Below are positions 1 to 63,440 of a DNA stretch of 64,000 nt, in pieces. Source of the stretch: an uncultured Bacteroidota bacterium (GTDB lineage: Bacteria; Bacteroidota; Bacteroidia; B-17B0; Aurantibacillaceae); the NCBI GenBank assembly GCA_937873155.1, contig CALMVZ010000038.1, forward strand, positions 1-64,000, read 5' to 3'. The notes beneath the pieces were generated by a model, which worked only from the letters and a program-made list of their open reading frames with translations, was not told the origin of the DNA and searched no databases. The stretch's first letter is position 1, and each line of letters opens with the position of its first letter. The translations under genes and the position numbers were made by a program.

Positions 1-2832
1 GGTGGAACAGGTCCTTATAATTTCTTATGGTTCCCTACTTTAAATAATACACCAAATGTAGGTACACTTCCTCCGGGAACACATACCGTACAGATCACTG
101 ATAATTTAGGTTGTATCACAACATTAACTACTAATATCACACAACCTCCTGCTTTAACAGCTGCGATCTCATCTACTAACTCTAACTGTACACAGGCAAA
201 TGGTCATGCTTGTGTTGTAGCCGGTGGTGGTGCAGGTGGTTATACCTATCAATGGACAAGTAATCCTTTATTCACTAACTCTTGTATCAATAATGTTGTA
301 GCAGGCGCGTATACTGTAACTGTAACAGACGTTAACGGTTGTACAATAAATGCAATTGCAAACATCAATGATATTGCAGGTCCAAGCGTTGCCGTAACAG
401 CAACTACTGCGGTACTTTGTTTCGGTGGCAGCAACGGTTCTGCAAATACAAATATTTCCGGTGGTACAGGAACGATCAGTGTGTTGTGGTCTTATTTAGC
501 ACAAACATCTCAGAACGTAAATAATTTACCGGCAGGTTTACATTCAATTACCATTACAGACGCGGCAGGTTGTGTTGCTTCAGCTTCAGTTCTTATCACA
601 CAACCGACGCAATTGAACTCAGCTATAACAAATGTTACAAATGTATCTTGCAGCGGATCTAACAACGGTTCAGCAACTATGTTAGTGAATGGCGGAACAC
701 CGGGTTACACTTACTTGTGGTCGCCAAGCGCACAATCTTCATCAATGGCTGTAAGTATGGGGCCTGGTACTTATACTTGTTCTGTAACAGATGCAAACGG
801 TTGTCCTACTTCACAAACAGTAACTATTACACAACCGAATCCGTTAACAATAACAAGTTTCTCTGTTACTAATTTAACTTGTAACGGAAATAATACCGGC
901 CAGATCCAAACAACTATATCAGGAGGTTCTCCTGCTTACACTTTAGTATGGTCACCGGCTCAACCTGCAAATGCAGTGATCACAAACCTGGCGGCAGGTA
1001 CTTACTCGTTATTAGTAACAGATACACAATCATGTACAACAACAGGTGTGTATGTTGTAACAGAACCTGCAGCTCTTTCTTCTGCCGCAACAGCAACACC
1101 TGCTACTTGTGGTAATGCAAATGGCAGCGCAACTGTAACAGTGAATGGCGGAACTCCGGGTTATACTTATAACTGGAATACACCAACAATACAAACAACA
1201 GCAATTGCTACGGGTATGGCAGCAAACACTTGGAGCTGTACTATTACAGATAGCAAAGGTTGTATCATTACACAATCGGTAACTGTTCCTAATGCTCCGG
1301 GCCCTGCTAATGCAACAACAAGTTTCACTGCACCATTGTGTTTCGGGCAACAGAACGGATCGATGGCTGTTAACTTTACTTCAGGTACTTCACCATATAC
1401 ATTTATCTGGAATAACCCAAGTGCATCTACAACACAAACCGTGAACGGTGTTGGTGCGGGCGTTTATTCAGCAACAGTAACAGATTTTTATGGTTGTACA
1501 ACGAATGCAGTTGTTAACGTTACTCAGCCAAACATCTTATTACTGAATATCAGTCCTGATGTGACAATTTGTTACGGCCAGTTAACACAGATCTATGCAG
1601 CGGGTGCTGGTGGAACTCCGGCTTACTCTTATACATGGAATGTCGCTTCACTGAATGGTGGCGGCCCTCATGCTGTTACTCCGACTGTTACCACTCAGTA
1701 CATTGTTAATATGAGTGATGCAAATGGCTGTACGGTAAATCCGAAAACGATCAATGTGAACGTAACTCCTCAGTTGTTAGCAACAGGTGGTATGGCTACA
1801 CGTTGTGATGGTAAAACAGTTAATTTAAGCCCTACGATTACCAGTCCCGGTAATGGTGGCCCTTATACTTATAACTGGACAGGAGGTTCAACATCATCTA
1901 ATATTACTGTGACTGCGAGTTATCCTACATCACCAAATATTTATACTGTAACTATCAGTGACGGATGTACAGTGCCTGATGCAACAGCTATCTTCACTGT
2001 GAATGTGAATCCATTACCGAATGGTTCATTTACAGGGGATATACTAAAAGGCTGTGCACCTTTAGGTGTGAACTTTACAGCTTTATCCAATGTACCGGGT
2101 GCGGTTTACGAATGGCATATGAGCGGTGGTACGGGGTCGAATGAGAATGGTAGTCCGAAATACTGGATCTTTGATCAGGACGGACAATATACTGTTCAAT
2201 TAACGATCACAAATCCATTGACAGGCTGTAAGAAAGATACTACTGCAATTAATTATATTGAAGTTTATCCTGTGCCTATCGCAGAATTCATTGCTAATCC
2301 ATGGGAAAGTACGATCCTGGATCCGATCATCAGCTTCACAAACTTATCAGTAGGTGGTACAAGTTACTATTGGGATTTTGGTGATATCGATGATCCGTTA
2401 AATAATACTACAGTAATGCATCCGTCGCACGCCTATGAAAATGCAGGTGTGTACAAAGTGTGGTTAGTGGCCTTCAATGATAAAGGTTGTAAAGATACTG
2501 TGATGCACACTGTTGAGATCTTAGGTGAATATGCATTGTATATCCCTAATACATTTACACCTGATGGAAACGGATTGAATGATATCTTCCAGCCGAAAGG
2601 TGTTGGAATTGATGAAGAATCGTATAAAATGTACATCTTCGACCGCTGGGGCGAGATCATCTTCACCAGTGATGAATTCCGTAAAGGGTGGGATGGTAAG
2701 GTAAAAGGTACAGACAAGCAGGCTGAACAAGGTGTTTATACATACAAGATCTTAGTGAAAGATTACCAGGGAAATGTTCATCCTTATATCGGTCATGTTA
2801 ACTGTTTACCTCGACAAGAGAAAGTAGATTAA
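1..2832 (+). CDS. SprB-repeat/PKD adhesin with T9SS type B sorting domain (5' end outside window)
   Basis: The frame is open from base 1, so this is the C-terminal 943 residues of a larger surface protein; the GTG at 481 is internal. The first ~650 residues are tandem SprB-like units of about 80 residues, each with a Cys, a 'NGSA/GGTPGY.Y.W' segment and a 'T(V/I)TD..GC' segment. Two PKD-like domains follow (the second has YYWDFGD). The end carries the gliding-motility-associated C-terminal domain (IPNTFTPDGNGLNDIF, then FDRWGE and GWDG), which is the type B T9SS export signal in this phylum. The likely role is a cell-surface adhesin or gliding/biofilm protein. Near-identical DNA in neighbouring repeats makes length variation by recombination plausible. 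A strong terminator follows. The family call is confident; the ligand is unknown. Confidence 0.93.
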   Translation, partial: GGTGPYNFLWFPTLNNTPNVGTLPPGTHTVQITDNLGCITTLTTNITQPPALTAAISSTNSNCTQANGHACVVAGGGAGGYTYQWTSNPLFTNSCINNVVAGAYTVTVTDVNGCTINAIANINDIAGPSVAVTATTAVLCFGGSNGSANTNISGGTGTISVLWSYLAQTSQNVNNLPAGLHSITITDAAGCVASASVLITQPTQLNSAITNVTNVSCSGSNNGSATMLVNGGTPGYTYLWSPSAQSSSMAVSMGPGTYTCSVTDANGCPTSQTVTITQPNPLTITSFSVTNLTCNGNNTGQIQTTISGGSPAYTLVWSPAQPANAVITNLAAGTYSLLVTDTQSCTTTGVYVVTEPAALSSAATATPATCGNANGSATVTVNGGTPGYTYNWNTPTIQTTAIATGMAANTWSCTITDSKGCIITQSVTVPNAPGPANATTSFTAPLCFGQQNGSMAVNFTSGTSPYTFIWNNPSASTTQTVNGVGAGVYSATVTDFYGCTTNAVVNVTQPNILLLNISPDVTICYGQLTQIYAAGAGGTPAYSYTWNVASLNGGGPHAVTPTVTTQYIVNMSDANGCTVNPKTINVNVTPQLLATGGMATRCDGKTVNLSPTITSPGNGGPYTYNWTGGSTSSNITVTASYPTSPNIYTVTISDGCTVPDATAIFTVNVNPLPNGSFTGDILKGCAPLGVNFTALSNVPGAVYEWHMSGGTGSNENGSPKYWIFDQDGQYTVQLTITNPLTGCKKDTTAINYIEVYPVPIAEFIANPWESTILDPIISFTNLSVGGTSYYWDFGDIDDPLNNTTVMHPSHAYENAGVYKVWLVAFNDKGCKDTVMHTVEILGEYALYIPNTFTPDGNGLNDIFQPKGVGIDEESYKMYIFDRWGEIIFTSDEFRKGWDGKVKGTDKQAEQGVYTYKILVKDYQGNVHPYIGHVNCLPRQEKVD

Positions 2833-2853
2833 GATTAACTATATTGTGTAAAG

Positions 2854-2893
2854 AGCCCCTGAAGCGTACTTGTTCTGCTTCAGGGGCTTTTTT
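2854..2893 (+). terminator. Rho-independent terminator after the adhesin
   Basis: A perfect 12-bp stem (AGCCCCTGAAGC at 2854-2865 pairing with 2877-2888) and an 11-base loop are followed at once by a run of six T. It lies 21 bases after the adhesin stop and separates it from the Sia-like operon. Confidence 0.93.
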
Positions 2894-2935
2894 GTTCCTA
2901 AAAGGCTTTAAATAGTAATAGTTTAATTACTTTAT

Positions 2936-2943
2936 TATATTTG
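2936..2943 (+). promoter_or_regulatory. Bacteroidota -7 promoter element (TATATTTG)
   Basis: An exact match to the TAnnTTTG -7 consensus of this phylum, 11 bases before the ATG of the SiaB-like gene and downstream of the preceding terminator. If transcription starts 4-7 bases after the motif, the leader is only a few bases long. I see no good -33 TTTG, so the call rests on the -7 match and position. Confidence 0.5.
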
Positions 2944-2953
2944 TTATAAAGGC

Positions 2954-3493
2954 ATGAATCCCGGCAATTCCGTCATACACGAGATCTATCAGTACATGAA
3001 TGATAAAGGCGTTGTCATCTCTTACCTGGGTGGCTTTAACCAGGATGTAGTTAACTCTTTACTGGGTTCTGTAAAAAAGATCGTGAATGAGTCGGAATTG
3101 GATTTCCGGACTAAAAAACGTTTTTACGCTGTGGCTGCTGAATGCCTGGATAACGTGAACCGGTATAATTATGAAGCGCCCGGTAGTAACGGTTTCACGA
3201 AAACTTTTTTCAATGTTTCAAGTGATGATAATTTCTTTATTATCCAGACAGGAAATTATATTCATAAAGATCAAAAAACAATTTTAACTGAGAAGTTGGA
3301 TAAGGTGAACTCACTGAACAGGGAAGAACTGAAAAAATTCTATCACGAAAAATTATCTGAAAGCCCTGCACGCGGAGGCGGATTGGGAATAATTGACATT
3401 TCACTGCGTACCGGCTGTAAGATCGCTTATGATTGTAAGCCTATCGATGGTGATGTTTACTTTTTTGTTTTACTAACTTCTATCAAAAAATAA
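2954..3493 (+). CDS. SiaB-like protein kinase (DUF6272)
   Basis: This 179-residue soluble protein has no signal peptide or membrane segment. It looks like the DUF6272/SiaB family: a GHKL-type ATPase fold with an N-box-like stretch AAECLDNVNRY near residues 57-67 and a glycine-rich ARGGGLGI segment near residue 140, expected to bind ATP. In Pseudomonas aeruginosa, SiaB phosphorylates SiaC and the PP2C phosphatase SiaA reverses this. The next gene, 3 bases downstream, is SiaC-like and PP2C-domain genes follow, which strongly supports the call. No SiaD-type diguanylate cyclase is nearby, so the output is unknown. The gene begins just after a TATATTTG element. Confidence 0.85.
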   Translation: MNPGNSVIHEIYQYMNDKGVVISYLGGFNQDVVNSLLGSVKKIVNESELDFRTKKRFYAVAAECLDNVNRYNYEAPGSNGFTKTFFNVSSDDNFFIIQTGNYIHKDQKTILTEKLDKVNSLNREELKKFYHEKLSESPARGGGLGIIDISLRTGCKIAYDCKPIDGDVYFFVLLTSIKK

Positions 3494-3496
3494 TTT

Positions 3497-3901
3497 ATGG
3501 ACGCTATTATATTAGAACCTACAGCAACCACGCCGAAAGTAATTATCGATCCTTCGAAGGATAAATTCGAGATCTCGGGGGAATCACGGCCTGAGAATGC
3601 TGCTAAATTTTATACGCCCATCATCGCCTGGTTCGATAATTATAAATCTGTGCTCTATTTTCAGAAGGAAAGTTTTGGGAAAGCGAAGTCAGTGAACATG
3701 GATTTTAAATTAGAGTACTTCAATTCAACATCTGCAAAATTCATTCTCGATATATTCTACCAATTGGAAAAAATAAAAAAGGATGGTTTTGAAGTAGAAG
3801 TGATCTGGAACTACGATGCCCGTGATACCGATATGAAAGAATCCGGGGAAGAATTCTCAAGTTACGTTCCCGGGTTAGCAGTGAAGTATGTTGAATACTA
3901 A
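3497..3901 (+). CDS. SiaC-like regulatory phosphoprotein (DUF1987)
   Basis: This is a 134-residue cytosolic protein of the DUF1987/SiaC family, seen in the N-terminal TPKVIIDP and FEISGESRPEN segments and the central LEYFNSTSAKF motif. In SiaC of P. aeruginosa the equivalent motif carries the phosphorylated threonine; here the candidates are Ser77, Thr78 and Ser79. It is expected to be the switch protein, phosphorylated by the upstream kinase and dephosphorylated by one of the downstream PP2C proteins. It starts 3 bases after siaB-like and ends 8 bases before the first phosphatase, so the genes are surely co-transcribed. Its partner in this organism is unknown. Confidence 0.88.
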   Translation: MDAIILEPTATTPKVIIDPSKDKFEISGESRPENAAKFYTPIIAWFDNYKSVLYFQKESFGKAKSVNMDFKLEYFNSTSAKFILDIFYQLEKIKKDGFEVEVIWNYDARDTDMKESGEEFSSYVPGLAVKYVEY

Positions 3902-3909
3902 AATCATTT

Positions 3910-6129
3910 ATGAGGAAAATAGCGTTTGCTATATTGATCTTTATCTCACAAGTTGTCAGCTCACAAAGCAGGCGCGTTCTTGATTCCTTATTAACTTTAA
4001 TTAAAAACAGTTCTGTACAGGATACGGTGCTCGCTAAACATTATAACGAGACCGCTTATGCATTCAACCGTATAAGTATTGATTCTTCAAAATACTTCGC
4101 AGAAAAGGGCCTTCAGCTTTCTACAAAATTAAATTACAAAAGCGGAATTGCCGGAGCGAATAATGCTTTAGGTATCTATTATCACATGACATCGAAATTC
4201 GATGATGCTATTGCTTATTATAAAAAGGCAAAGGATATTAAAGAATCAATCGGCGATAAGAAAAGCGCAGTAAGTTCACAGAACAATATCGGTATCATTT
4301 ATTATCTGCAGGCTAAGTATGATATGGCGCTCGCTACTTTTAATGCTTCATTACGGACACAGGAAGGAATGAAAGATAGCACTGGTATTCCTAATACTTT
4401 AAATTATATCGCCTCAGTTCATTTCTTTCTTTCTAATTACGAAAAAGCTTTAGGGTATTATTTAAAATCGCTCGGATTGTATAAAAAGACTAACGACAAA
4501 CCGGGAATGGCACAGGCATATAACAATCTTGGGATCATTTATAGTTCGCTCAACAATGAAGAAAAGGCTATTGAGAATTATACCAGTTCACTTCAGTTAG
4601 CTAATGAAATAGGAGCAAGAGATCTCGTTACAACAGCTTATAATAACCTTGGAACCGTCTTTCAAAAAAGAAAGAATTATCCGAAAGCATTGGAGTATTT
4701 CACAAAAAGTCTCAGTCTATCGAGGGAACTAAAATTAAGTGAAGGTATTGCGCAGAATCTGGAAAGGATCGGGATGGTAATGCAGGAGCAAAATAAATTA
4801 CCGGAAGCACTCGTAAAGTTTGAAGAAGCACTGGATATGCAGGAAAAAGCCGGACAGGTTTATAGTACAGCCAATATATTAATGTCGATGGGTAGTGTTT
4901 TAGCTAAATTAAACAGATCAGCTGATGCAGCTAAGTGTTACGACCGGGCTTTAAAAATTGCCCAGGAGATAAAAGCAAAGAACCTGATCGCCGATATTTC
5001 TTTTAATTATGCAGGATTATTGAAACAGAATAAAGATTATAAGAAAGCTTATTTCTTCATGACACAATATTCTTCTATCCGGGACAGTATTTTAAGTGAT
5101 GAGAAAAATAAGAGCATGGCTGAGATGCAAACACGCTTTGATACTGATGCAAAGGAGAAAGAGATCGTTCTGTTAACTAAAAATAAAGATATTGAAGAAC
5201 TAAAATTAGGAGAGCAAAAAGAGAATATTGAGAAGCAAAAAGTTACCATCTATGCTTCGGGTATTAGTATTGTTTTGGCTCTTGCTCTCGCTTTTTTTGG
5301 TTACCGAAGTTATGCTGAGAAGAAAAAGACCAATATTATTCTGGAAGAAAAGAATCGCGCCATCTCAAAGCAAAAAGAGATCTTAGAAATAAAAAATAAA
5401 CAGATCACCAATAGTATTGTGTATGCAAAAAGTATCCAGGATGTTATTTTACCGTCTGATGAAGTAGTTAAAAAGCAATTACCGGATTCTTTCATTTTAT
5501 TTAAACCCAAAGACGTTGTCAGTGGAGATTTCTATTGGTTAAATGGAGAGTATATTGCAGCTATTGATTGTGTCGGACATGGGGTTCCCGGTGGTTTTAT
5601 GGCTTTACATGCTTATAACCTGATAGAACGTATTGCAAAGGAGAATAAAAACGCTTCCCCGAATCTGATCCTTGATCAGTTAAACAAGCAGGTCATTGAA
5701 TCGCTCCATCAGAATAACGATCACACATCAGTAAAACACGGCATGGATCTTGCTTTGCTGAAAATAAAAGGGAATAAGATAGAATATTCAGGAGCGAGAA
5801 ATCCGCTTTTAATTGTTAGTCCCGCTAAAGAACTAAAAGAAGTAAAGGCAGACAAAATGTTTGTTGGTGGCGCTCTTGGTAATTTTACGAATAATATTCT
5901 GGAGGTTGAGAAAGGCAGCATGCTTTATGTTTTTACGGATGGGTATGCTGATCAGAAAGGTGGCCCGCAAAATAAAAAATTCTTTATCAGTGTATTGAAG
6001 GAACTGTTGGCGTCTGCATCAGATAAGAATACAGAAGAGCAAAAAGCCATACTCGATAAAACATTTGAGGAATGGAAAGGGAAGAATGAACAAATGGATG
6101 ATGTGTTAATTGTCGGCATCCGTGTATGA
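3910..6129 (+). CDS. TPR-TM-SpoIIE/PP2C phosphatase, catalytically intact (SiaA-like role)
   Basis: 739 residues: signal peptide (1-18), about nine TPR motifs (to ~390) predicted periplasmic, a membrane segment near 446-467, a charged coiled coil (~470-510) and a C-terminal SpoIIE-type PP2C domain. The phosphatase residues are present: Asp540 in SGDFYW, Asp553 and His557 in DCVGHG, GMDLALL, Asp677 in FTDG and Asp731 in the final MDDVLIVG. It is therefore likely an active Ser/Thr phosphatase, predicted to dephosphorylate the SiaC-like protein in response to a signal or partner sensed by the TPRs. The architecture differs from Pseudomonas SiaA, whose sensor is not TPR-based. It overlaps the next gene by 4 bases (ATGA). 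Confidence 0.88.
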   Translation: MRKIAFAILIFISQVVSSQSRRVLDSLLTLIKNSSVQDTVLAKHYNETAYAFNRISIDSSKYFAEKGLQLSTKLNYKSGIAGANNALGIYYHMTSKFDDAIAYYKKAKDIKESIGDKKSAVSSQNNIGIIYYLQAKYDMALATFNASLRTQEGMKDSTGIPNTLNYIASVHFFLSNYEKALGYYLKSLGLYKKTNDKPGMAQAYNNLGIIYSSLNNEEKAIENYTSSLQLANEIGARDLVTTAYNNLGTVFQKRKNYPKALEYFTKSLSLSRELKLSEGIAQNLERIGMVMQEQNKLPEALVKFEEALDMQEKAGQVYSTANILMSMGSVLAKLNRSADAAKCYDRALKIAQEIKAKNLIADISFNYAGLLKQNKDYKKAYFFMTQYSSIRDSILSDEKNKSMAEMQTRFDTDAKEKEIVLLTKNKDIEELKLGEQKENIEKQKVTIYASGISIVLALALAFFGYRSYAEKKKTNIILEEKNRAISKQKEILEIKNKQITNSIVYAKSIQDVILPSDEVVKKQLPDSFILFKPKDVVSGDFYWLNGEYIAAIDCVGHGVPGGFMALHAYNLIERIAKENKNASPNLILDQLNKQVIESLHQNNDHTSVKHGMDLALLKIKGNKIEYSGARNPLLIVSPAKELKEVKADKMFVGGALGNFTNNILEVEKGSMLYVFTDGYADQKGGPQNKKFFISVLKELLASASDKNTEEQKAILDKTFEEWKGKNEQMDDVLIVGIRV

Positions 6130-8240
6130 GAGAACGATTGACATATTTGTTTTTCTTTTTCTGTTGTGTATGCAATTCGCAATCCCATTTAGATTCCCTC
6201 AATAAGGTTCTGCAAACTGTTTCTAATGACACAGATAAAGTAAAAACACTTTTGCAATTCTCTCTTTTTTATGGCAGCAACGATCCTGAAAAGGCATTTG
6301 AGTACAGCGAAAAAGCTGTAATGATCGCTGAGAACCCGAATTATAATCTCACCAATAGATCAAACAAACGAATTGCGGGCTCAGCTTACAGAAGTAAAGG
6401 AGTTGCAAGTTATTTTTTAGGAAATTATTCGCAAGCGCTAAAATTATTACAAGCTTCACTAAAGCTAAGCGAAGAAGCCGGCGACAGACCAGGATGCTCG
6501 AGTGCTTTTGGCTGGTTGGGAAATACATATTATAGCAAAGGTGATTTCGAAAAAGCATTACAGTTCTTACTAAGTTCGCTTAAATTACAGGAAGAATTAA
6601 AAAATATCGCAGGTGTTGCAGGGTCTATGAATGGCATCGCAAACATCTATCATATCCGGAAAGAATTCAATAAAGCGTTGGAGTATTATTTCAAATCCCT
6701 CGAGATGCGGAAGAAATTAGAGGATCAGGTCAATGTCGCTTATACTTATAATAACATAGGGCTCGTTTATGCCGAGGCGGATAGCCTGGATAAATCACTT
6801 TTCTATCATTTAAAATGTTTACAGATCGTAAAACATCATGATGATAAGAAAGGAATGGCGAACTCTTACGGAAATATTGGGAATGTTTACCTGAGACAAA
6901 ATAAATACAGTGATGCTTTGGCTTACCTTAACAAGTCACTCGCTATATCAGAAGAGATAAGTGATAAGAATGGAGTTTGTGCTTCGTATTATGAAATTGG
7001 CAAAACCTACGAAAGCTCTGGTGATCATAAAAACGCTATCATTTATTTTGATAAAAGTTTAGCGTTAGGAAAGGAAATCGGAGATAAGGATGCTGTCAAG
7101 GATAACTACCGCGAGCTCGCCGGTATTTATTCGGGAAGCAATGATCATAAGAAAGCAATGGAGTATTACGAAAATTATGCTTTACTCAAAGATTCGTTGC
7201 TAAATCAGGGCAATGATGAGAACATGCAGGAAATGCAGGCGAGTTTTGACACAGAACAAAAATCAAAAGAAATAGAATTATTGCAAAAGGATAACAGTAT
7301 CCGCGAATTGCAAATTAATACCCTGGAAGCAAGCATTCACCGTCAACGAATAGTTATTTATGCAGTTATCGGAAGTTTGCTTTTAGCAGTAGCACTTATA
7401 ATTGTTGTCCTTCGTGGAAATAAGCAAAGAAAGAAAACAAATCTCGGACTTGAAAGAAAGAACAAGGAAATTGAATTACAGAAACGATTGATAGAAGAAA
7501 AGAACATGCAAATTACAGACAGTATCGATTATGCCAGTTCTATTCAAAATGCAATTCTTCCCACAGAAGAGAATATCAAGATGTGTTTTCCGGATTCTTT
7601 TGTTCTGTTTTTGCAGAAAGATGTTGTTAGTGGGAATTTTTATTGGCTTCAGGCCCCCGCCGGCTCCCAAAAAGGGGGAGAGAAGAAGACGGTCGATAAT
7701 TGTTTGTTTGCCGTTGTGGATTGTTCAGAAAAAGGCGTGCCCGGAGCTTTTATGAGTGTGATGGCTAACGGAATGTTGGAAAGTAGTGTTGACAATACAA
7801 CTATCAATGAGCCGGGTGTAATTCTTGATGAGTTAAACAAAACTGTGAAGAGATTGAATATGCCTGTTAAATTTGGTTTAGACCTCGCTTTAATGAATTT
7901 TGACCCAAAGAAGCAGGAAGTGAAGTTTGCGGGAACAAATACGCCTTTAGTAATTGTTGGGAAAGACGGAACGATAAAGAAATTGGCTCCTGATCCCAAA
8001 AGAATTGGAAATGCTGATCAAAACTTTAATTCTTCTTCAGCAAAAGTGAATAGAGGCGATATGATCTATTTGTTCACGAATGGTTTTTCAGAACATTATC
8101 CGGTTTTTTTAGATTTGCTTGCTTCTATCTGCGGATATGATTCCCAGGAACAAAAAGAAAACCTGAACCGGGAATTCCAAAAATGGAAGGAGAAGCATGA
8201 ACAAATGGAGGATATACTTGTAATTGGCGCCCGTGTATGA
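6126..8240 (+). CDS. TPR-TM-PP2C paralogue with degenerate active site (probable pseudophosphatase)
   Basis: 704 residues with the same plan as the gene before: signal peptide, TPR array to ~370, membrane segment near 407-428, coiled coil, SpoIIE-type domain. The active site is broken. The SGDFYW aspartate is Asn504, the G-H of DCxGHG is Glu535-Lys536, and the FTDG aspartate is Asn652; Asp532 and Asp696 remain. With two of the four expected metal-binding aspartates gone, phosphatase activity is unlikely, yet the frame is open and the fold motifs are kept. A 12-16 residue insert (APAGSQKGGEKK) follows FYW and is encoded by a palindromic repeat. Both ends show 4-base ATGA overlaps. It may sense through its TPRs and bind SiaC-like protein without catalysis. 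Confidence 0.83.
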   Translation: MRERLTYLFFFFCCVCNSQSHLDSLNKVLQTVSNDTDKVKTLLQFSLFYGSNDPEKAFEYSEKAVMIAENPNYNLTNRSNKRIAGSAYRSKGVASYFLGNYSQALKLLQASLKLSEEAGDRPGCSSAFGWLGNTYYSKGDFEKALQFLLSSLKLQEELKNIAGVAGSMNGIANIYHIRKEFNKALEYYFKSLEMRKKLEDQVNVAYTYNNIGLVYAEADSLDKSLFYHLKCLQIVKHHDDKKGMANSYGNIGNVYLRQNKYSDALAYLNKSLAISEEISDKNGVCASYYEIGKTYESSGDHKNAIIYFDKSLALGKEIGDKDAVKDNYRELAGIYSGSNDHKKAMEYYENYALLKDSLLNQGNDENMQEMQASFDTEQKSKEIELLQKDNSIRELQINTLEASIHRQRIVIYAVIGSLLLAVALIIVVLRGNKQRKKTNLGLERKNKEIELQKRLIEEKNMQITDSIDYASSIQNAILPTEENIKMCFPDSFVLFLQKDVVSGNFYWLQAPAGSQKGGEKKTVDNCLFAVVDCSEKGVPGAFMSVMANGMLESSVDNTTINEPGVILDELNKTVKRLNMPVKFGLDLALMNFDPKKQEVKFAGTNTPLVIVGKDGTIKKLAPDPKRIGNADQNFNSSSAKVNRGDMIYLFTNGFSEHYPVFLDLLASICGYDSQEQKENLNREFQKWKEKHEQMEDILVIGARV
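7650..7687. repeat. Palindromic GC-rich insert in the PP2C domain (copy 1)
   Basis: A C-run and G-run element (AGGCCCCCGCCGGCTCCC, then AAAAAGGGGGAGAGAAG) forms a CTCCC/GGGAG hairpin. It sits in frame right after the SGNFYW codons, where the first paralogue goes directly from FYW to the next strand. A diverged copy lies at the same place in the third paralogue. Its composition is unlike the AT-rich flanking sequence. Confidence 0.6.
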
Positions 8241-10135
8241 GGAAATTGTTGTTCATAGTTCTTGTTCTTATCTCTAATGTTATTCCGGCTGTTAACATCG
8301 ATTCAGTTCTTAAAGCTATTTCAGGACATAAAATTGATTCCGCTTATTGTTTTATGCTCACCAACCTTGCCGGAAATTATGAAGATCTTGGGGATTACGA
8401 CAACGCTATTGCTTATGCTTTGCGCGCAAGAAAAATAGCAGATTCGCTCAATTATAAAACAGGATTACAAGCCGCACTTAATAGTTTAGGGACTTCTCAT
8501 TTGGATAAGGGTGATGTAAAAAAAGCTCTGGAATATCATTTAGCGGCGTTAAAAGTAAGAGAGGAACTAGGTTCAAAATTACTGATCGCTTACAGTTACC
8601 TGAATTTGGGAAATATTTATTTCAGATTAGGTGAAGATGAGAATGCACTGAAGGATTACCAGCTCTCGATCGATCTGATGTATGAAATGCAGGATACTAT
8701 GAACGCGGCGATTGGTTTAACAAACATGGGTTCCATTTATAGTAACAAAGGTGATGTAAAGAAAGCGCAGGAACTTTATCTGAAAGCATTAGCAATACGT
8801 AAACGTTTCAATGATGTGGACGGGATCGCGGAGATCTATTCGAATCTCAGTGTTACGTTCATGGATGCGCAGCGGTATAAAGAAGCTTTGGAGTATGCTT
8901 TTCTTACCATTGATCTGTATGGAGAAAGCGGAAGTAAATTGGGAAAAGCTATTTCTTACAGTAATATAGGAGATGTCTATGAACACATGAACGATCTGAA
9001 CAATGCGATCAAATACCAGGAGATAGCGATGCAGTTGTCGTTGGAGATGAAAAGTATGTTCATGTTGCCTACCTGTTACCAGTTGCTGGCTTCAGCTTAT
9101 TCGAAAAAAGGTGATTATAAGAACGCGGTGATGTATGCCGAGTTGTTTTCTCGGGTAAGGGACAGTGTGATGAACTCTGAGAATTCAAAAATGATCCAGG
9201 AAATGCAAACGCGTTTTGAAACAGGAAAGAAAGAGAAAGAGATTGAATTACTCCAAAAGGATAAGAACATCCGTGATCTTGAAATAAGTAAATCGGATGC
9301 AAGCATAAAACGTCAACGCATCATCATATTTACGATCATTGGCGGATTGATATTGGTTATTGCTCTTATTACTTTGATATTAAAGAGTAACCGTGAACGC
9401 AAAAAGATCAATATCGGATTGGCGAAGAAAAATATTGAGATCGAACATCAGAAAGATCTGATCGAGGAGAAGAATAAAATGATAACGGACAGCATTGATT
9501 ACGCCCGTACCATTCAGAATGCAATATTACCTCCAGATGGAAAAATAAAAGAATGTTTCCCTGAATCCTTCATTGTCTTTGAACCTAAAGAAATTGTGAG
9601 TGGAGATTTTTATTGGCTTCAGGCCCCAACCGGCTCCCGCAAAGAGGGAGAGAAGAACCAGGCCGATCATTGTTTGTTTGCCGTAGTGGACTGTGCAGGA
9701 GAAGGTGTGCCGGGAGCTTTTATGAGTATTATGGTAAATAATATGTTGGAGACGATAGTATTGGAACAAAAATTGATTGATCCTTCTGTTATAATCGAAG
9801 AGTTAAATAAAAAATACAAGACTGAAATTTCTTTGATCGCCTGGAATAGAAAGAAAAACGAATTTCAATTCGCAGGAACTAAAATGCCTTTGGTTATTAT
9901 CGGCAATTCCAAAGTCAATAAGATTATTCCTGAAAGCGGAAAAACACAAACTATTCCTCTGCAAAAAGGAGATATGGTTTACATGTTTACGGACGGAGTA
10001 AAAGGTGATGTTGAATTTATTGAAGAGTTAACGGCTATCTCTCAAAAGGATCTTCAGCAGCAAAAAGAAATTCTTCAGCAAGGATTCAAAAGCAAGGAAG
10101 ATGATATTTTAATCGTTGGCTTTAAAAATAGTTAG
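8237..10135 (+). CDS. TPR-TM-PP2C paralogue with partly degenerate active site
   Basis: 632 residues: signal peptide (1-17), TPR array to ~300, membrane segment near 360-382, coiled coil and a shortened SpoIIE-type domain. Asp457 (SGDFYW), Asp485, Asp586 (FTDG) and Asp623 (final EDDILIVG) are kept, but DCxGHG reads DCAGEG (Glu489 for His) and the usual DLAL strand is ISLIA, so about 20-30 residues there are missing or altered. Activity is uncertain. It carries the same palindrome-encoded insert after FYW as the previous gene, showing that these two share a more recent ancestor. It is the last gene of the operon, overlapping the upstream gene by 4 bases. Confidence 0.83.
   Translation: MRKLLFIVLVLISNVIPAVNIDSVLKAISGHKIDSAYCFMLTNLAGNYEDLGDYDNAIAYALRARKIADSLNYKTGLQAALNSLGTSHLDKGDVKKALEYHLAALKVREELGSKLLIAYSYLNLGNIYFRLGEDENALKDYQLSIDLMYEMQDTMNAAIGLTNMGSIYSNKGDVKKAQELYLKALAIRKRFNDVDGIAEIYSNLSVTFMDAQRYKEALEYAFLTIDLYGESGSKLGKAISYSNIGDVYEHMNDLNNAIKYQEIAMQLSLEMKSMFMLPTCYQLLASAYSKKGDYKNAVMYAELFSRVRDSVMNSENSKMIQEMQTRFETGKKEKEIELLQKDKNIRDLEISKSDASIKRQRIIIFTIIGGLILVIALITLILKSNRERKKINIGLAKKNIEIEHQKDLIEEKNKMITDSIDYARTIQNAILPPDGKIKECFPESFIVFEPKEIVSGDFYWLQAPTGSRKEGEKNQADHCLFAVVDCAGEGVPGAFMSIMVNNMLETIVLEQKLIDPSVIIEELNKKYKTEISLIAWNRKKNEFQFAGTKMPLVIIGNSKVNKIIPESGKTQTIPLQKGDMVYMFTDGVKGDVEFIEELTAISQKDLQQQKEILQQGFKSKEDDILIVGFKNS
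9630..9657. repeat. Palindromic insert in the PP2C domain (copy 2)
   Basis: A diverged copy of the element at 7650-7687 (AGGCCCCAACCGGCTCCC, then GCAAAGAGGGAGAGAAG), again in frame after SGDFYW. The CTCCC/GGGAG arms are kept while the loop differs. Gene duplication followed by drift explains the two copies best. Confidence 0.55.
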
Positions 10136-10202
10136 CACAATGTTTGCCCTGGGCAGTCGAAGGGGTGTTATGGTGGTTGGATTCGAACTTAATAAGATCA
10201 GA

Positions 10203-10288
10203 GCTAAAACTCAATGAATTGAAGGATGTCAACAACCCAAGACATGAGTCTGGGGTTAAGAAATGCTAAAGAACTCAAGGGTTTTAGC
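10203..10288. repeat. Imperfect inverted repeat between convergent genes
   Basis: GCTAAAACTC (10203-10212) pairs with GGGTTTTAGC (10279-10288) with one G-T wobble. The arms enclose 66 bases in the gap between the PP2C operon and the convergent 1495-residue gene. There is no T-run, so it is not a classical terminator; it could be a bidirectional terminator or a copy of a dispersed non-coding repeat. The rest of 10136-10298 shows nothing I recognise. Confidence 0.4.
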
Positions 10289-10298
10289 CCAGATGATG

Positions 10299-13200
10299 CT
10301 ACTCCTCCTGCTTCTCTTCCTTCTCCTCGCCAACCACACCGGCTTGTTTTAGTTTGGTTTCGAAGACGGTTACTTTTTGTGGAGAGCAAGAATTGAACTG
10401 ATAAGATGGTCCTTTCTCAACATTCTGCTTCCTGTTCTTTGGTTTTAATTCTTTTAATACATTATTGAATTCATTATTACTCGATACCGCACTCATTAAA
10501 CCTTTGTAATATTCAAAGTAATACCAGGTGTTCTGGTCAATTTTTATATAGATGATGATCTTATCGCCACCACCGCGCATCTTATCTACTTTTATCCATC
10601 CCGGTACATAACGGTTGATCTCGTTCTTTAAAATGTTCCCTACACCAATTTGCCCGGTGGAGATGAATGATTTCAGCTCCGGGTAATATTTGAATTCTAC
10701 ATCATTGAAGAAAAATGTTTTCTCTAATTCATCCGGAAATTTCTTTATTGAACCGTATAACGTCAAGTCAGCAATAGCTTTATCAGCTTTTTCTTTCCCT
10801 AAAATTTCCATTAAACCTTTAAATAGTTCGGGCTGAGAAAAATCTACAGGCGATAAGCTGTTGATGTAGATCTCCATGTCTTTTGCCATGATCCGCATCG
10901 CTTTATCTTCAAAGAAGAAATTGATGGTCATCATCAAACGAATGTTGGATGAATCTCCCGGTGTGTAATGCGTTGCTTGTCCAACCGAATTGATGGCAAC
11001 CTGCCCAAGATCAGCCCCAAGATCAAATTTACCTTCACCGTACATGGTACAGTTCTTCGTGTTCAGACTTAAATAATTACCCGGTAAATTTGATTCAATT
11101 AATTTTTCACGGTTCGAGATCTGGTATTCTTCACTTTCCCTGTCGAATGTTAAGAAACCATCAGCGCTCACTAATTTCTGGTCTTTTTTACTTCCTTTCG
11201 GTGATAAGAATCCTGAATACACTGCATTCGTATCTGTTGAATACATGATCGCATTTACAACGTCCCTTCCAAACATATCTTTCGCATCGGCAGGAATCGG
11301 AATTAAAATTTCTTTCGGATTGATATCACCGCTGAATTTCAGGTAGGATTTGCCAACCCTGTTACACACGTGAACAATTCTTGTACCGCCATCGAAATTC
11401 AAGAATTGATTACTTGCGGATAACGTTACTTTTCCGGCAAAACTAAAATAATCGTTGAAGTTGAAATTATCTTTTTCGCTGATCATACCTTGCGAAATTG
11501 TATTACCTGAAGTGTCCGGACGAATAACATCGAATTTGATCAGGAATTTCTTTTCGTTCTCATCCACATATAAATAATCTCCCGTTCCTAAATAATCACG
11601 GCGGCTGAAGATATTTGCTTTTACATTACGGATGCTGTGGTATCTGGTAACCGTGTTAGCCATGATAGAAGCGTTCTTTAAAGTATCCATTACCGCATTT
11701 TTACGAATGGTCACCTTACCACTGTCAGGAAATAAACGGGCATCGGCAACATTAATGAATGGCACATTCAAACAGTTGATGATGAATTTCCGTAAATTAT
11801 ATTTCGCGGCAGGTGCAAAGAACCGGAGCGAATCCTGTTTGGGATGAACGCTGATAAATTCGGGTCCCTCGAGGTCGAGAGCATTCTCTGTATTTGCATC
11901 GAGTTTTTTCTGATCGTCACCCAATTCAATTTCCTCACTATCCATGTACCATTTGAAGCGGTCCATGTAAGCGATGTATTGATTCTTATCAAAACGTACA
12001 TAAGAACCGGCGCCATTGGAAATAAATTCTCCCATCCGTTTATCAAAATCGATCTTCGAGTTTACGTTAACGGTGGAGAAGGTGAATCCTTCCTCGTCAA
12101 AAGCTTTTAAGTGGAAGTCAGAAGTATCAGAGAAGAATTTCCGTTTGATGAATAATATTTTTCCGGATTTAAGGTCGGCTTTTCCGAAATCCACTTTTCC
12201 GTTTCCTGTTAGGGCATGTTTTGTTAAGTCAAACCGCCCGCTGAATTTTGCATCTTCTTTATAGGCGGTGAACGGTTTTTTTAAATTGCGTGCCTGTAAT
12301 AATTCTTTGTAAGGTTTAAAATGTAAGTATACAGTATCACCATGCGCTACCGGGAATTCATCCGGCACTTCCTGTTCTTTCACATCAAAGACAGTTGCGA
12401 CCCCATTCGCAGAGTCGGGGAAGAAGATCAGGTCAGGTACTTTCGATTTACTGGCACTAAAGATAAAATCCCCACCGCCGCGTAAACCTTTATTACTTAA
12501 ACGGATCTCCTGGTCGAAATTACCAACGCCGCCGTAAATAGGATAACCGCCCGGAGGAGTTTGACGGATGAAACCTAACGAATAATCTTTTTGGAGCGTT
12601 AACTTCTCCCTGAATGTTGGAAAAATTCCTGCTGAAGAAAATTCACCATTAAATTCTAAACCTTGTTTGGTGAAGTTGTCCAAACTATCAATCGTGAACG
12701 GATCGAGTTTGAAATAGAATTTATCACGGTTGTAAACTCCTTTAAAGATCTGGCGCTTGTCGTAGAATGAATAACTTTCTTTGAAGCTTTGGAAAGCAGG
12801 GTAGGTTGGGGCTTTGCCCCAGCCTGATTTATTTTTAGGTGCGTCGATCCGTAATTCTCCGTTAGCATTCTCAATAACAGTTTGTACTTTTTTGAATGGC
12901 AGATTTCCATTCACATCAGGTTCGTAAGCTTCCACATAGATCTTTATCGAATCGATCGTTTTCATTTTTACTTTGAAGAGATCATAATCGAAAACGAAAT
13001 CTTTACCATGGAATTCGAATTTTCCGGAAGCAACAACACCCGAGAATTCCATGTTACGGTTCTTCTTCAGTACAATGTCTTTACCTGTGGGAAACATGAA
13101 TACTTTTTGTGTATCACTTAAGAGCACATTTTTCACACCGTGAACTGTAAGATCCCAGTTCAATAAATTAAGCGTAGCATTTTCTTGTCCCGGAATAACA

Positions 13201-59505: not shown

Positions 59506-61452
59506 TTATTTTTTAATAATAATAAATTCAGTCCTCCTGTTCTTTTGATGTTCATCTTCAGTACAATCAGAAACAACTTTGCCTTCGCATGCGCAGCCTG
59601 CAATCAATTTACTCTCCCCATAACCTTTACCATAGATCCGATCGGGATTTGTGATCCTTTTCCTGATATAATTAGCTGAAGCTTTAGCTCTGTGATTTGA
59701 CAGGATCTGGTTGTACAATTTAGTATGCCTGCAATCCGTATGGGAACCTAATTCAATTACCATATCAGGATGATCGTTCATGATCTTTACGATCTTATCA
59801 AGTTCTGTTTGTGCATCCGGACGAATGTCATATTTATCAAGATCAAAAAAGATCGGGTTAAGTCCCGGAATAGAGGCAAGATCATTTCCTGCTTCAATTT
59901 TCTTTTCAATGATCTCTTCTTCGGTCAGTAATGTTACATCCGCTTTTACCACGAATTCTGACCCGTAAGTACTCGCTGTGTTGGTTCCTTCTGAATATTT
60001 TTCTTTTTTACCGGTTAATTTGAAGTTTTTATCCGCATCAACTAAAAAAACATAAGAACCGTTTGCTTTGGTAGTAAAGGTGTCGAGTACATTTCCTGCA
60101 TCATCTTTTAAAGTGACAAATGTGTTTGGCAGAATGTTCATGTCTTTATCTTTCGCAACCCCAATTATTTTCTTGCCAAGGTTCATTTTCGAAATATCCA
60201 CAAAATAAATATCGTCATCCCCGCAGCCGCCTTCACGGTTCGAAGAGAAGTAACCTTTAGTAATACTGTCATTAGCAATGATCGAGAAATCATCGTATTG
60301 TGTATTCAATGGAAAGCCGGCATTTAAAACGGGACCGCATTCGCGTTCAGTTAAGGCGCAGGTAAAAATATCGAGGCCACCCAAACCGTAATGACCATTG
60401 GAAGTAAAGAATAAAATACTATTGGTACTCTCAAAGAACGGGAACATGTCATCACCTTCAGTGTTTATTTTATTTCCCATATTCTCTGGTTTGCCCCAAT
60501 TACCTTTTTCATCTTTTTTGATCCTGTAAATATCTGCTTTCCCCAAACCGCCGGGCATGTCACTTGAAAAATACATGGTGTTACCATCAGGAGTAAGGCA
60601 AGGATGTCCGACAGAATAATCTTTATTATTTAAAAAGAAAGGTTCGTTCTTTGTCCATTTCCCGTCCTTGAATGATGAGAAGAAGATCTGGAGTTTAACG
60701 TATTTATCTTTTCTTGTCAGATCCTGGTTGTTACAGGTAAATGCCATGAAAGTTCCGTCTTTATTGAAACTGGCTGTACCGTCGTGCATCTTGCTGTTTA
60801 AATTTTTATCAAATACGGAAGGAGTTTTTAACTGGTCTCCATCAATATCAGAAACATACATATCCAGGAAAGGTTTTCCGTTCCAATTGTAATTTTTCGG
60901 ATTCGATTTATCTGTTCTGCTGGATGCAAAAACAATTCTATCCTTATAAAAGCTCGGAGCAAAATCCCCATCTTCTGTGTTGGCGTAAAGATTTGTGATC
61001 TTGTATTTACCTGTTTCTTTTAAAAGTTCTTTTATCTTCGCTTTGTTGGTCATGTAACTTTTGCCCCTGATATCATCCGGTTTCAGGTCGTGGAATGTTT
61101 CCATCCATTTATCCGCTTCATCATACTTACCATTGCTTTTCAGGATCATTGCGTAATTGTAGTAATCTTCAGGCGTAAGATGCTCTGTTGATCTCAGTAA
61201 TTCAGAATAAGCTGTTTCAGCTTCTTTATTCTTCTCGAGGTTGCGGTAACATAAAGCGAGTTCACGCTGCCCCGCCGGTGTTAATTGTTTTGCCTGCGAA
61301 TAAGCTTCCGCGGCTTTATCGAACGAGTAAACGAAAGCATATTTATCACCTTCTTTTTCTTTTCTCGATTTTTCCTGTGCAATACCGCTCATCCCGATCA
61401 GTAAGGAAAGGATAGCGATCCCTGTCTTTTTAATTTTTAGTAGTTGTAGCAT
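59506..61452 (-). CDS. TPR-PD40-OmpA envelope protein of T9SS triad 2
   Basis: 648 residues: signal peptide (to ~25), TPR-like repeats (~30-140), a PD40 propeller (~150-430, 'MYFSSDMPGGLGKADIYRI'), a carboxypeptidase-regulatory-like domain (~440-520) and an OmpA domain (~535-648) with IFFDLDKYDIRPDA and GSHTDCRHTKLYN..LSNHRAKA. It anchors the adhesin/PorP complex to the wall. It is third in the operon, 18 bases after porP/sprF. Confidence 0.93.
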   Translation of the reverse strand: MLQLLKIKKTGIAILSLLIGMSGIAQEKSRKEKEGDKYAFVYSFDKAAEAYSQAKQLTPAGQRELALCYRNLEKNKEAETAYSELLRSTEHLTPEDYYNYAMILKSNGKYDEADKWMETFHDLKPDDIRGKSYMTNKAKIKELLKETGKYKITNLYANTEDGDFAPSFYKDRIVFASSRTDKSNPKNYNWNGKPFLDMYVSDIDGDQLKTPSVFDKNLNSKMHDGTASFNKDGTFMAFTCNNQDLTRKDKYVKLQIFFSSFKDGKWTKNEPFFLNNKDYSVGHPCLTPDGNTMYFSSDMPGGLGKADIYRIKKDEKGNWGKPENMGNKINTEGDDMFPFFESTNSILFFTSNGHYGLGGLDIFTCALTERECGPVLNAGFPLNTQYDDFSIIANDSITKGYFSSNREGGCGDDDIYFVDISKMNLGKKIIGVAKDKDMNILPNTFVTLKDDAGNVLDTFTTKANGSYVFLVDADKNFKLTGKKEKYSEGTNTASTYGSEFVVKADVTLLTEEEIIEKKIEAGNDLASIPGLNPIFFDLDKYDIRPDAQTELDKIVKIMNDHPDMVIELGSHTDCRHTKLYNQILSNHRAKASANYIRKRITNPDRIYGKGYGESKLIAGCACEGKVVSDCTEDEHQKNRRTEFIIIKK

Positions 61453-61470
61453 GTTAAAAATAGTTGAATT

Positions 61471-62412
61471 TTAAAAATGGCGCGGTGAATGTATCTGTTT
61501 CATTTCTCCCGGCAAGAAGTCATAACGTAAAACTATTTCATGGCTTCCGTTGTTATATCTTGATGTCTTTAAACCATACGACCAATCGTAAGAGTAGCCT
61601 AAGAATAATTGCGGTGTTATGTTGAACCCGATCAAAGCCCCGAAGGAATCACCTGTCCTGTAATTCGCACCGAGTGATAATTTATTAGCGTAAACCAATT
61701 GCGCAGTAAGGTCAGCTTCGATAGGCGCTGCAGGAGTTAATTTAACGAGAGTAGTAGGCTTTAAGGCTAAGTTGTTTGAGATATTCAGAACAGTTCCGGC
61801 AATTACAAAATAATGTCTTTGTTCTTGTCCCGCTAAAACGGTTCCGTCATTCAGTTTTATATCTGAGAATTTATTCTGGAAAATATAAGGAACTGAAGCA
61901 CCTAAATAAAAACGTTCTCTCGAATAATAGACCCCGAATCCGCAATTTGGGTTTGTTTTATTTACAATGTTATTAGTGAAGGCAGGATCACTTTCCTGTT
62001 CTAGATCCAATGAACTTAATCTTGCTTGTGTTACTCTCACTCCGGCACTCAAACCAAAAGCTAATCGTGATTTGGAATTTATGCGCAACCTGTAAGCAAA
62101 ATCACCAAATACAGAGGTGTTATTGATCGGGCCGATTCTGTCGTTCAGTGCATACATTCCGATAGCGAGTTTATTGTTTCTCAGCGGTGTGTGAAAGGTC
62201 ATGGTCTCAGTTTGTGGAGCACCTTTAAAACTTACCCATTGTGAACGGTGAAGTGCTGTGACCGTTAAAGCATCCCTGCTTCCTGCATAAGCGGGATTAA
62301 CAACCAATGTGTTGTACATATAATGTGTGTACATAGGATCCTGTTGTGCTTGCAGGCTCAAACTTCCTAATGTAAAACTGATCCCCAGTAATTTTTTATA
62401 AACGTTTTGCAT
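61471..62412 (-). CDS. PorP/SprF family outer-membrane protein of T9SS triad 2
   Basis: 313 residues: signal peptide (to ~22, LQAQ), the hallmark QQDPMYTHYMYNTLVVNPAY, then a barrel pattern ending 'GYSYDWSYGLKTSRYNNGSHEIVLRYDF'-like strands (core SYDWSYGLKT). It holds the upstream-encoded type B cargo at the surface. It is 11 bases after the adhesin. Confidence 0.93.
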   Translation of the reverse strand: MQNVYKKLLGISFTLGSLSLQAQQDPMYTHYMYNTLVVNPAYAGSRDALTVTALHRSQWVSFKGAPQTETMTFHTPLRNNKLAIGMYALNDRIGPINNTSVFGDFAYRLRINSKSRLAFGLSAGVRVTQARLSSLDLEQESDPAFTNNIVNKTNPNCGFGVYYSRERFYLGASVPYIFQNKFSDIKLNDGTVLAGQEQRHYFVIAGTVLNISNNLALKPTTLVKLTPAAPIEADLTAQLVYANKLSLGANYRTGDSFGALIGFNITPQLFLGYSYDWSYGLKTSRYNNGSHEIVLRYDFLPGEMKQIHSPRHF

Positions 62413-62423
62413 GATCTCTTTTT

Positions 62424-63440
62424 TTAGCGGTTCAGATAAATTGTTCCTTTAAAAGGAGGTGTGCCGTCACCCAGGTCAAGGATATAGAAATAAGTGCCAA
62501 CCGGTAATTCATTTCCGCCAACTCTTAACCCGAGGGTCGATGTTCCGTTCCAGGTGTTTTCGTAAGGCTGTGCATTAAATACTTTATCTCCCCAGCGGTT
62601 AAATATCTCAAAATAATTTTTCGGATAATTCTCTATACCTGCAATATTGAAAGTTTCGTTAATACCATCACCGTTCGGAGAAAATCCTTCAGGAATAACA
62701 GCGATTGGATTTCTTATCGTTACGCTGATCGCATCTCCTGCAGAACATCCGGCTGTGTTCGTTACTGTTACTGAATATGTACCACTGGTATTCACAGTTA
62801 TCATTTGAGTGATTGATCCGGTATTCCATAAATAAACAGAACCTGCATTTCCTGCATCCAGGGTGATATTGTTAGCAACAGTTACGTCAGGCCCCAGACT
62901 AACTACAGGCTTAGGTTTAATGGTAACATTAATTGTATCTGTATCCATGCACATACCGTTACTAACGGTCACCCAGAACTGGCCGCTGATGCAAATATTA
63001 AGATTGCTGTATTCCGATCCCGTGCTCCAATTGTAAGTCACACCCGATTGCGCTGCTGATACATTTACGCAAGCGCATGAAGAAGTGTCAGGGCCAAGGT
63101 TAACAACCGGTGCGGCTATAACATTTACAACGAATGTATCCATGCTTGTACAATTGTTTGCCCCGGTAGTCGCAACTATATAGGTTGAAGTGTTAGTTGG
63201 TGAAACTGCCACAGAAGGGCTGGTTTGCCCACCCGGGCTCCATGAATATGTATAAGGCCCGGAACAACCGGTGATAGTTGGTGTGAGAACAGTTGAACTG
63301 CCTCTGCAAAGCGTTACTGTAACTGTAGAAGCAGTTTTAAGACCATTGATCTGTTTTCTTTGGGCGAATGAAAGCGTTTGAATGATCGCGACCAGGATAA
63401 AAAGAAGAACTATTTTTCTTCTGAGTAATATTGTTTTCAT
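62424..63440 (-). CDS. Short T9SS type B surface protein (SprB-like repeats)
   Basis: 338 residues: signal peptide (to ~26), three Ig-like/SprB-type repeats marked by '[13 protein letters not shown]', '[11 protein letters not shown]' and '[10 protein letters not shown]', and the CHU_C domain ([27 protein letters not shown]). It is much shorter than the adhesin at 19787-23557. It is the first gene of the five-gene minus-strand operon; a TACCTTTG element lies ~44 bases upstream. Confidence 0.92.

Follow-up and report, generated by a model that had tools for sequence, protein, structure and literature searches.

At positions 2954-10135 of the window, which is the whole 64,000-nucleotide stretch of uncultured Bacteroidota DNA analysed here, five co-directional open reading frames form one operon, encoding a SiaB-family kinase, a SiaC-family protein and three phosphatase-type proteins, T1, T2 and T3 (Table 1). 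The T1/T2 and T2/T3 junctions are ATGA overlaps of 4 bases, which relatives show too, and the operon ends with T3, since the 4.5-kb gene that comes after it lies on the opposite strand. The putative promoter element stands 10 bases ahead of the SiaB start codon, and an identical element precedes SiaB in locus L093 as well; TAnnTTTG is the -7 promoter consensus of Bacteroidota. Chance or wrong gene calls as the source of the operon were rejected, as the family matches lie far above the cut-offs.

Table 1. Features of the operon and its upstream border (positions in the window)
Feature	Position	Strand	Evidence
Putative Bacteroidota -7 promoter element TATATTTG	2936..2943	+	Pattern match to TAnnTTTG; weak evidence
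SiaB-family Ser/Thr kinase (GHKL/HATPase type), 179 aa	2954..3493	+	PF19788, NF038262, 6kko_A alignment
SiaC-family switch phosphoprotein, 134 aa	3497..3901	+	PF09345, 6kko_C alignment
T1: signal peptide, TPR, TM, coiled-coil linker, intact PP2C	3910..6129	+	PF07228, 6k4e match, residue mapping
T2: T1-like architecture, predicted pseudo-PP2C	6126..8240	+	Residue mapping, AF2 model
T3: T1-like architecture, eroded PP2C	8237..10135	+	Residue mapping, AF2 model

The upstream gene (481-2832) encodes a SprB-repeat/CHU_C protein, and its pairing with SiaB is conserved in the congener G055. As a member of the operon it was rejected and is probably a separate unit, because a hairpin and a T run, recognized by eye in the window and in L093, intervene before SiaB; an automated scan of 2700-10400 gave no listing of such a hairpin and T run ahead of SiaB. 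A copy 86% identical to this gene, which in the window is cut by the contig start (1-2832), opens contig C34 (L215:1-2829), so that the assembly break is probably located at this repeat. At the other end of the window, two neighbouring minus-strand genes encode one CHU_C and one PorP/SprF protein (59506-63440).

The product of the first gene matches DUF6272 (PF19788) at 6e-28 and scores 111.8 bits against the NCBIfam model SiaB_fam_kinase NF038262 (cut-off 85); in a search of solved structures it finds Pseudomonas aeruginosa SiaB (6kko_A, 1e-7), with an alignment that spans 22-170 and in which the catalytic Glu and the N-box Asn of SiaB are retained. The second gene product matches PF09345 SiaC with 118 bits (cut-off 24.5, 2e-34) and, among solved structures, P. 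aeruginosa SiaC (6kko_C, 6.5e-10). Both fall below the cut-offs for true equivalogs, the kinase with 45 bits against NF038264 (cut-off 225) and the second protein against the model for Pseudomonas SiaC. Ser77 of the SiaC-family protein aligns with Thr68 of P. aeruginosa SiaC, which is the phospho-acceptor and contacts SiaD (PMC7647112, PMC8457831); it is invariant among 7 SiaC orthologues and is the predicted phospho-acceptor. The locus therefore holds what characterizes a SiaABC-type system, a SiaB-family kinase, a SiaC with Ser/Thr at the T68 position and an adjacent SpoIIE-type PP2C.

T1, T2 and T3 each combine TPRs with a PF07228 SpoIIE domain, the two parts being separated by a single TM helix. 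From the hydrophobic N terminus onward come the TPRs, then the TM helix with basic residues behind it, then a helical linker and finally the PP2C domain, an order consistent with TPRs outside and PP2C inside the cell. The preliminary description of this DNA, which had proposed a SiaB-like kinase, a SiaC-like substrate and three periplasmic-TPR, single-TM PP2C proteins joined by 4-base overlaps, with several sensors beside one SiaC, is borne out by the family matches, the 6kko alignments, the domains, the junctions and the gene content of the operon.

Its implication of three equivalent phosphatases acting on SiaC did not hold once the catalytic positions had been mapped onto SiaA numbering, with residue roles taken from the SiaA structure paper (PMC7647112). 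The PP2C domain of T1, whose nearest PDB chain is SiaA-PP2C (6k4e, 4e-27), retains D457, D474, G477, H478, D534, D600, G601, D604 and D653, and T1 is likely the SiaA analogue and SiaC phosphatase. At the same positions T2 has N, D, E, K, D, N, G, E and E; as three of the four metal-ligand Asp are lost (D457N, D600N, D653E), besides G477E, H478K and D604E, its PP2C is almost certainly catalytically inactive. T3, with D, D, G, E, E, D, G, G and D, has the four M1/M2 ligands D457, D474, D600 and D653, by which it could still be active, together with H478E and the M3-helper changes D534E and D604G. In both T2 and T3 the alpha5-alpha6 substrate loop, which holds G611 and F612 in SiaA, is deleted. 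Deletion of these two residues is the lesion of a non-aggregative SiaA mutant, and modelling of SiaA implicates the loop in SiaC binding (PMC7647112). Without this loop, which SiaA requires for its engagement of SiaC, phosphatase activity of T3 is doubtful and T3 would at best be a weak enzyme.

The eroded domains are still predicted to fold. In their AlphaFold2 models (mean pLDDT 85.5 for T2 and 82.5 for T3) both retain the PP2C fold, with SiaA-PP2C 6k4e as best phosphatase match (TM-score on the target 0.87 and 0.76, rmsd 2.2 and 2.9, respectively). The SiaA dimer is formed via helices alpha1-alpha3 (PMC7647112), and alpha1-alpha2 is the PP2C segment best conserved between T1 and T2/T3 in the window, with 63% identity of T1 to T2 and 59% to T3 compared with 30-48% in other PP2C parts, which indicates just that some dimer, perhaps a homodimer, is kept.

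Orthologues of this SiaC (at least 69% identity) are present in five of the 87 genomes of the family, and the order SiaB-SiaC-T1-(T2)-(T3) is kept in four related genomes (G055, G064, G001 and G056) as far as their contigs reach, so that the separation of these genes in relatives, which had been named as a refutation of the proposed system, is not what is found. G064, of another genus, has all three PP2Cs intact, which points to three active enzymes as the ancestral state. The T2 of the congener G055 is missing D600, D604 and the loop and retains SGD and GHG; G056 has two copies only, the second of which is T3 by its TPRs and has lost D474, G477, D600 and D604. Together, the intact trio and these partly eroded copies demonstrate that erosion proceeded stepwise in the genus of the window. 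In trees of the TPR parts, T1, T2 and T3 are separate clades across genera (support 100/100, 100/100 and 100/99), whereas the tree of linker plus PP2C groups the T2 and T3 copies from the genus of the window together (99/98) and places those of G064 elsewhere; this conflict suggests either gene conversion of the effector half with the sensors kept distinct or long-branch attraction of the eroded domains.

Constraint on the two halves is inverted between T1 and its paralogues. Identities of the window proteins in TPR/PP2C are 44/65% (T1), 53/45% (T2) and 59/45% (T3) to G064, 73/78% (T1) and 80/66% (T2) to G055, and 69/63% (T1) and 61/47% (T3) to G056; the TPRs are thus better conserved than the PP2C in T2 and T3, and the reverse is the case for T1 in two of three comparisons. 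With sites treated as independent, three of four contrasts are significant, T1-T2 with z 3.6 (G064) and 4.8 (G055) and T1-T3 with z 5.6 (G064), whereas the T1-T3 contrast against G056, where T1 also conserves TPR over PP2C, is not (z 1.2). Between T2 and its G055 counterpart omega is 0.06 for the TPRs and 0.13 for the PP2C, and eroded PP2C domains range from 0.13 to 0.25, well below 1; these values are rough because dS, at about 1.8-1.9 for T2, is near saturation. By these estimates the sensors of T2 and T3 are under strong purifying selection, with their PP2C domains relaxed, not free.

The 4.85-Mb source genome encodes about 41 SpoIIE-type phosphatase domains and five SiaC proteins. According to a motif table, only T2, T3 and one further domain, C11a, are clearly eroded among them, and each of the three stands in tandem with an intact SpoIIE copy. 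C11a is the degenerate first member of a second tandem TPR-SpoIIE pair (L030:3980-8439; G000:C11:381979-386438), whose second member is intact; its motifs read SGN, SAKQG, TEG and LKD, and D457, G477, D600 and D653 are lost. No SiaB or SiaC adjoins this pair. A relative of C11a in G058, 46% identical, is eroded too (SSDFYF, LANCKDPG, YTGAN) and carries an internal stop.

With P. aeruginosa SiaABCD the operon shares the SiaB-type kinase, a STAS-like substrate of SiaC type whose acceptor occupies the corresponding position and a SpoIIE/PP2C phosphatase in the membrane that is closest, among solved structures, to SiaA; it differs in that SiaD is missing, the acceptor is Ser instead of Thr, the sensor is a periplasmic TPR superhelix and three phosphatase-type receptors are present, one or two of them apparently catalytically dead. 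The logic of kinase, STAS-like antagonist and PP2C is also that of RsbU/RsbT/RsbS-type and other sigma-factor partner switches, but here the kinase is of the SiaB family, the substrate is of the SiaC family and no sigma factor gene lies in the operon. Eukaryotic PP2C pseudophosphatases such as TAB1 and PHLPP2 likewise kept the PP2C fold after metal-ligand loss and have a regulatory, not a catalytic role; those considered here come from a bacterium, carry a periplasmic sensor on the same polypeptide and are encoded in tandem with a paralogue that is active. A literature search for bacterial PP2C pseudophosphatases returned eukaryotic or off-topic papers only.

We favour, with a probability of about one half, a SiaABC-type switch in which one phosphatase works and the two eroded copies have been retained as additional receptors. 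By homology, SiaB would phosphorylate SiaC on Ser77, and T1 would take this phosphate off when the TPR superhelix on its periplasmic side adopts the signalling state. T2 and T3, in which the TPR sensor is constrained and the TM/coiled-coil linker and the dimer helices of the PP2C are preserved, probably relay signals without enzyme action, most likely as non-catalytic receptor subunits that would heterodimerize with T1; alternatively they may pair with each other, or bind phosphorylated SiaC without cleaving it. In each case a single SiaC switch would gain two more inputs from the periplasm. SiaC in its free form would then act on a partner other than a diguanylate cyclase, for which type IX secretion or its adhesins are the leading guess. 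The broader proposition that catalytically dead PP2C receptors, each equipped with a periplasmic TPR sensor of its own, partner a single active paralogue, that several signals thereby set the phosphorylation of one SiaC and that in Bacteroidota this SiaC controls type IX secretion or the display of surface adhesins in place of c-di-GMP, is speculative, and we would rather bet against it.

Stepwise loss of catalytic residues, faster evolution of the PP2C of T2 and T3 than of that of T1 and the reduction to two copies in G056 would also be expected if T2 and T3 were decaying duplicates heading for loss and T1 alone mattered. Their frames are, however, without stop codons or frameshifts, ATGA coupling is retained, the predicted PP2C fold is intact in both, and the T2 sensor is held tighter than its PP2C with even the eroded domains far from neutrality, which makes decay unlikely. 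A still smaller chance is given to T1, T2 and T3 all being phosphatases, each of which answers its own signal through its own catalysis with the substitutions tolerated: the four retained metal ligands of T3 and the three intact copies of G064 speak for it, but T2 is without three of these ligands, and both T2 and T3 lack the loop whose two-residue deletion in SiaA accompanies non-aggregation. Comparably improbable is that T2 and T3 serve as sinks, inactive PP2Cs which, with no pairing to T1, bind, shield or localize phosphorylated SiaC and compete with T1 in a dominant-negative manner; a fold kept after catalysis is lost would suit such a role, but the loop through which SiaC would be bound is precisely what both have lost. 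One active enzyme with two receptor subunits stays the preferred reading, and the eroded tandem receptors, as a natural series of three intact, partly and fully eroded copies, lend themselves to asking how bacteria make enzymes into regulatory receptor subunits.

To our knowledge, the only worked-out SiaC output is a diguanylate cyclase; SiaC has been suggested to be a general modulator of adjacent proteins. SiaC is found in 85 of the 87 family genomes, and whole-genome searches gave no GGDEF domain in the source genome and a match in just one of the 87, a 118-aa piece with an internal stop, so that the output is not SiaD-like. The absence of the cyclase, already stated in the preliminary description, is thereby confirmed, and a hidden SiaD was rejected by the same searches. 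As this whole family uses the switch with no intact GGDEF found, what the switch controls there can be put to the test.

Among 80 Bacteroidota SiaC loci, SiaB-SiaC adjoining a SpoIIE phosphatase is the usual arrangement; this is a phylum-wide habit and not particular to the present locus, where what is new is the tandem array of eroded receptors. In statistics that ignore kinship, with loci picked by SiaC similarity and several of them clearly sisters, PD40/OmpA proteins (by a model that covers more than one domain) number 25 per 1.2 Mb near SiaC loci versus 2 per 0.4 Mb in control regions, 23 of the 25 within two non-core genes of SiaB/SiaC (p 8e-6), PorP/SprF reaches 7.5 per Mb at SiaC loci versus 3.6 per Mb in whole genomes, eight of nine being near SiaB/SiaC (p 0.02), and CHU_C alone is not significantly near SiaB/SiaC at these loci (p 0.06). 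The order CHU_C, PorP/SprF, PD40-OmpA and then the Sia genes recurs in L118, L132, L144 and L177. The other SiaBC loci of the source genome have no clear T9SS-type neighbourhood, and a literature search on T9SS with PP2C, TPR-SpoIIE and Bacteroidota partner switching yielded nothing on point; type IX secretion or surface adhesins as SiaC output is a lead, not a result.

Fusions of about 300 aa between SiaB and SiaC occur in many Bacteroidota (L145, L155, L156, L157, L161, L164, L172-L175), and one PP2C-SiaB fusion of 938 aa is encoded at L109:9773-12589; such fusions are natural evidence that kinase, SiaC and PP2C work together. As a clue to the output, the SiaC-SiaC, SiaB-SiaB and SiaB-SiaC fusions of L118 brought no new output domain. 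Tandem SiaB-SiaB (about 370 aa) and SiaC-SiaC (273 aa) proteins are encoded at L118:14211-15335, L169:18152-19255 and L118:9985-10806. In several relatives (L103, L107, L110, L111 and L112) the product of the gene preceding SiaB is conserved and about 325 aa long (RPRRNRKS..IR..VQE); we take it to be a putative porphobilinogen synthase (HemB), with a possible link to haem.
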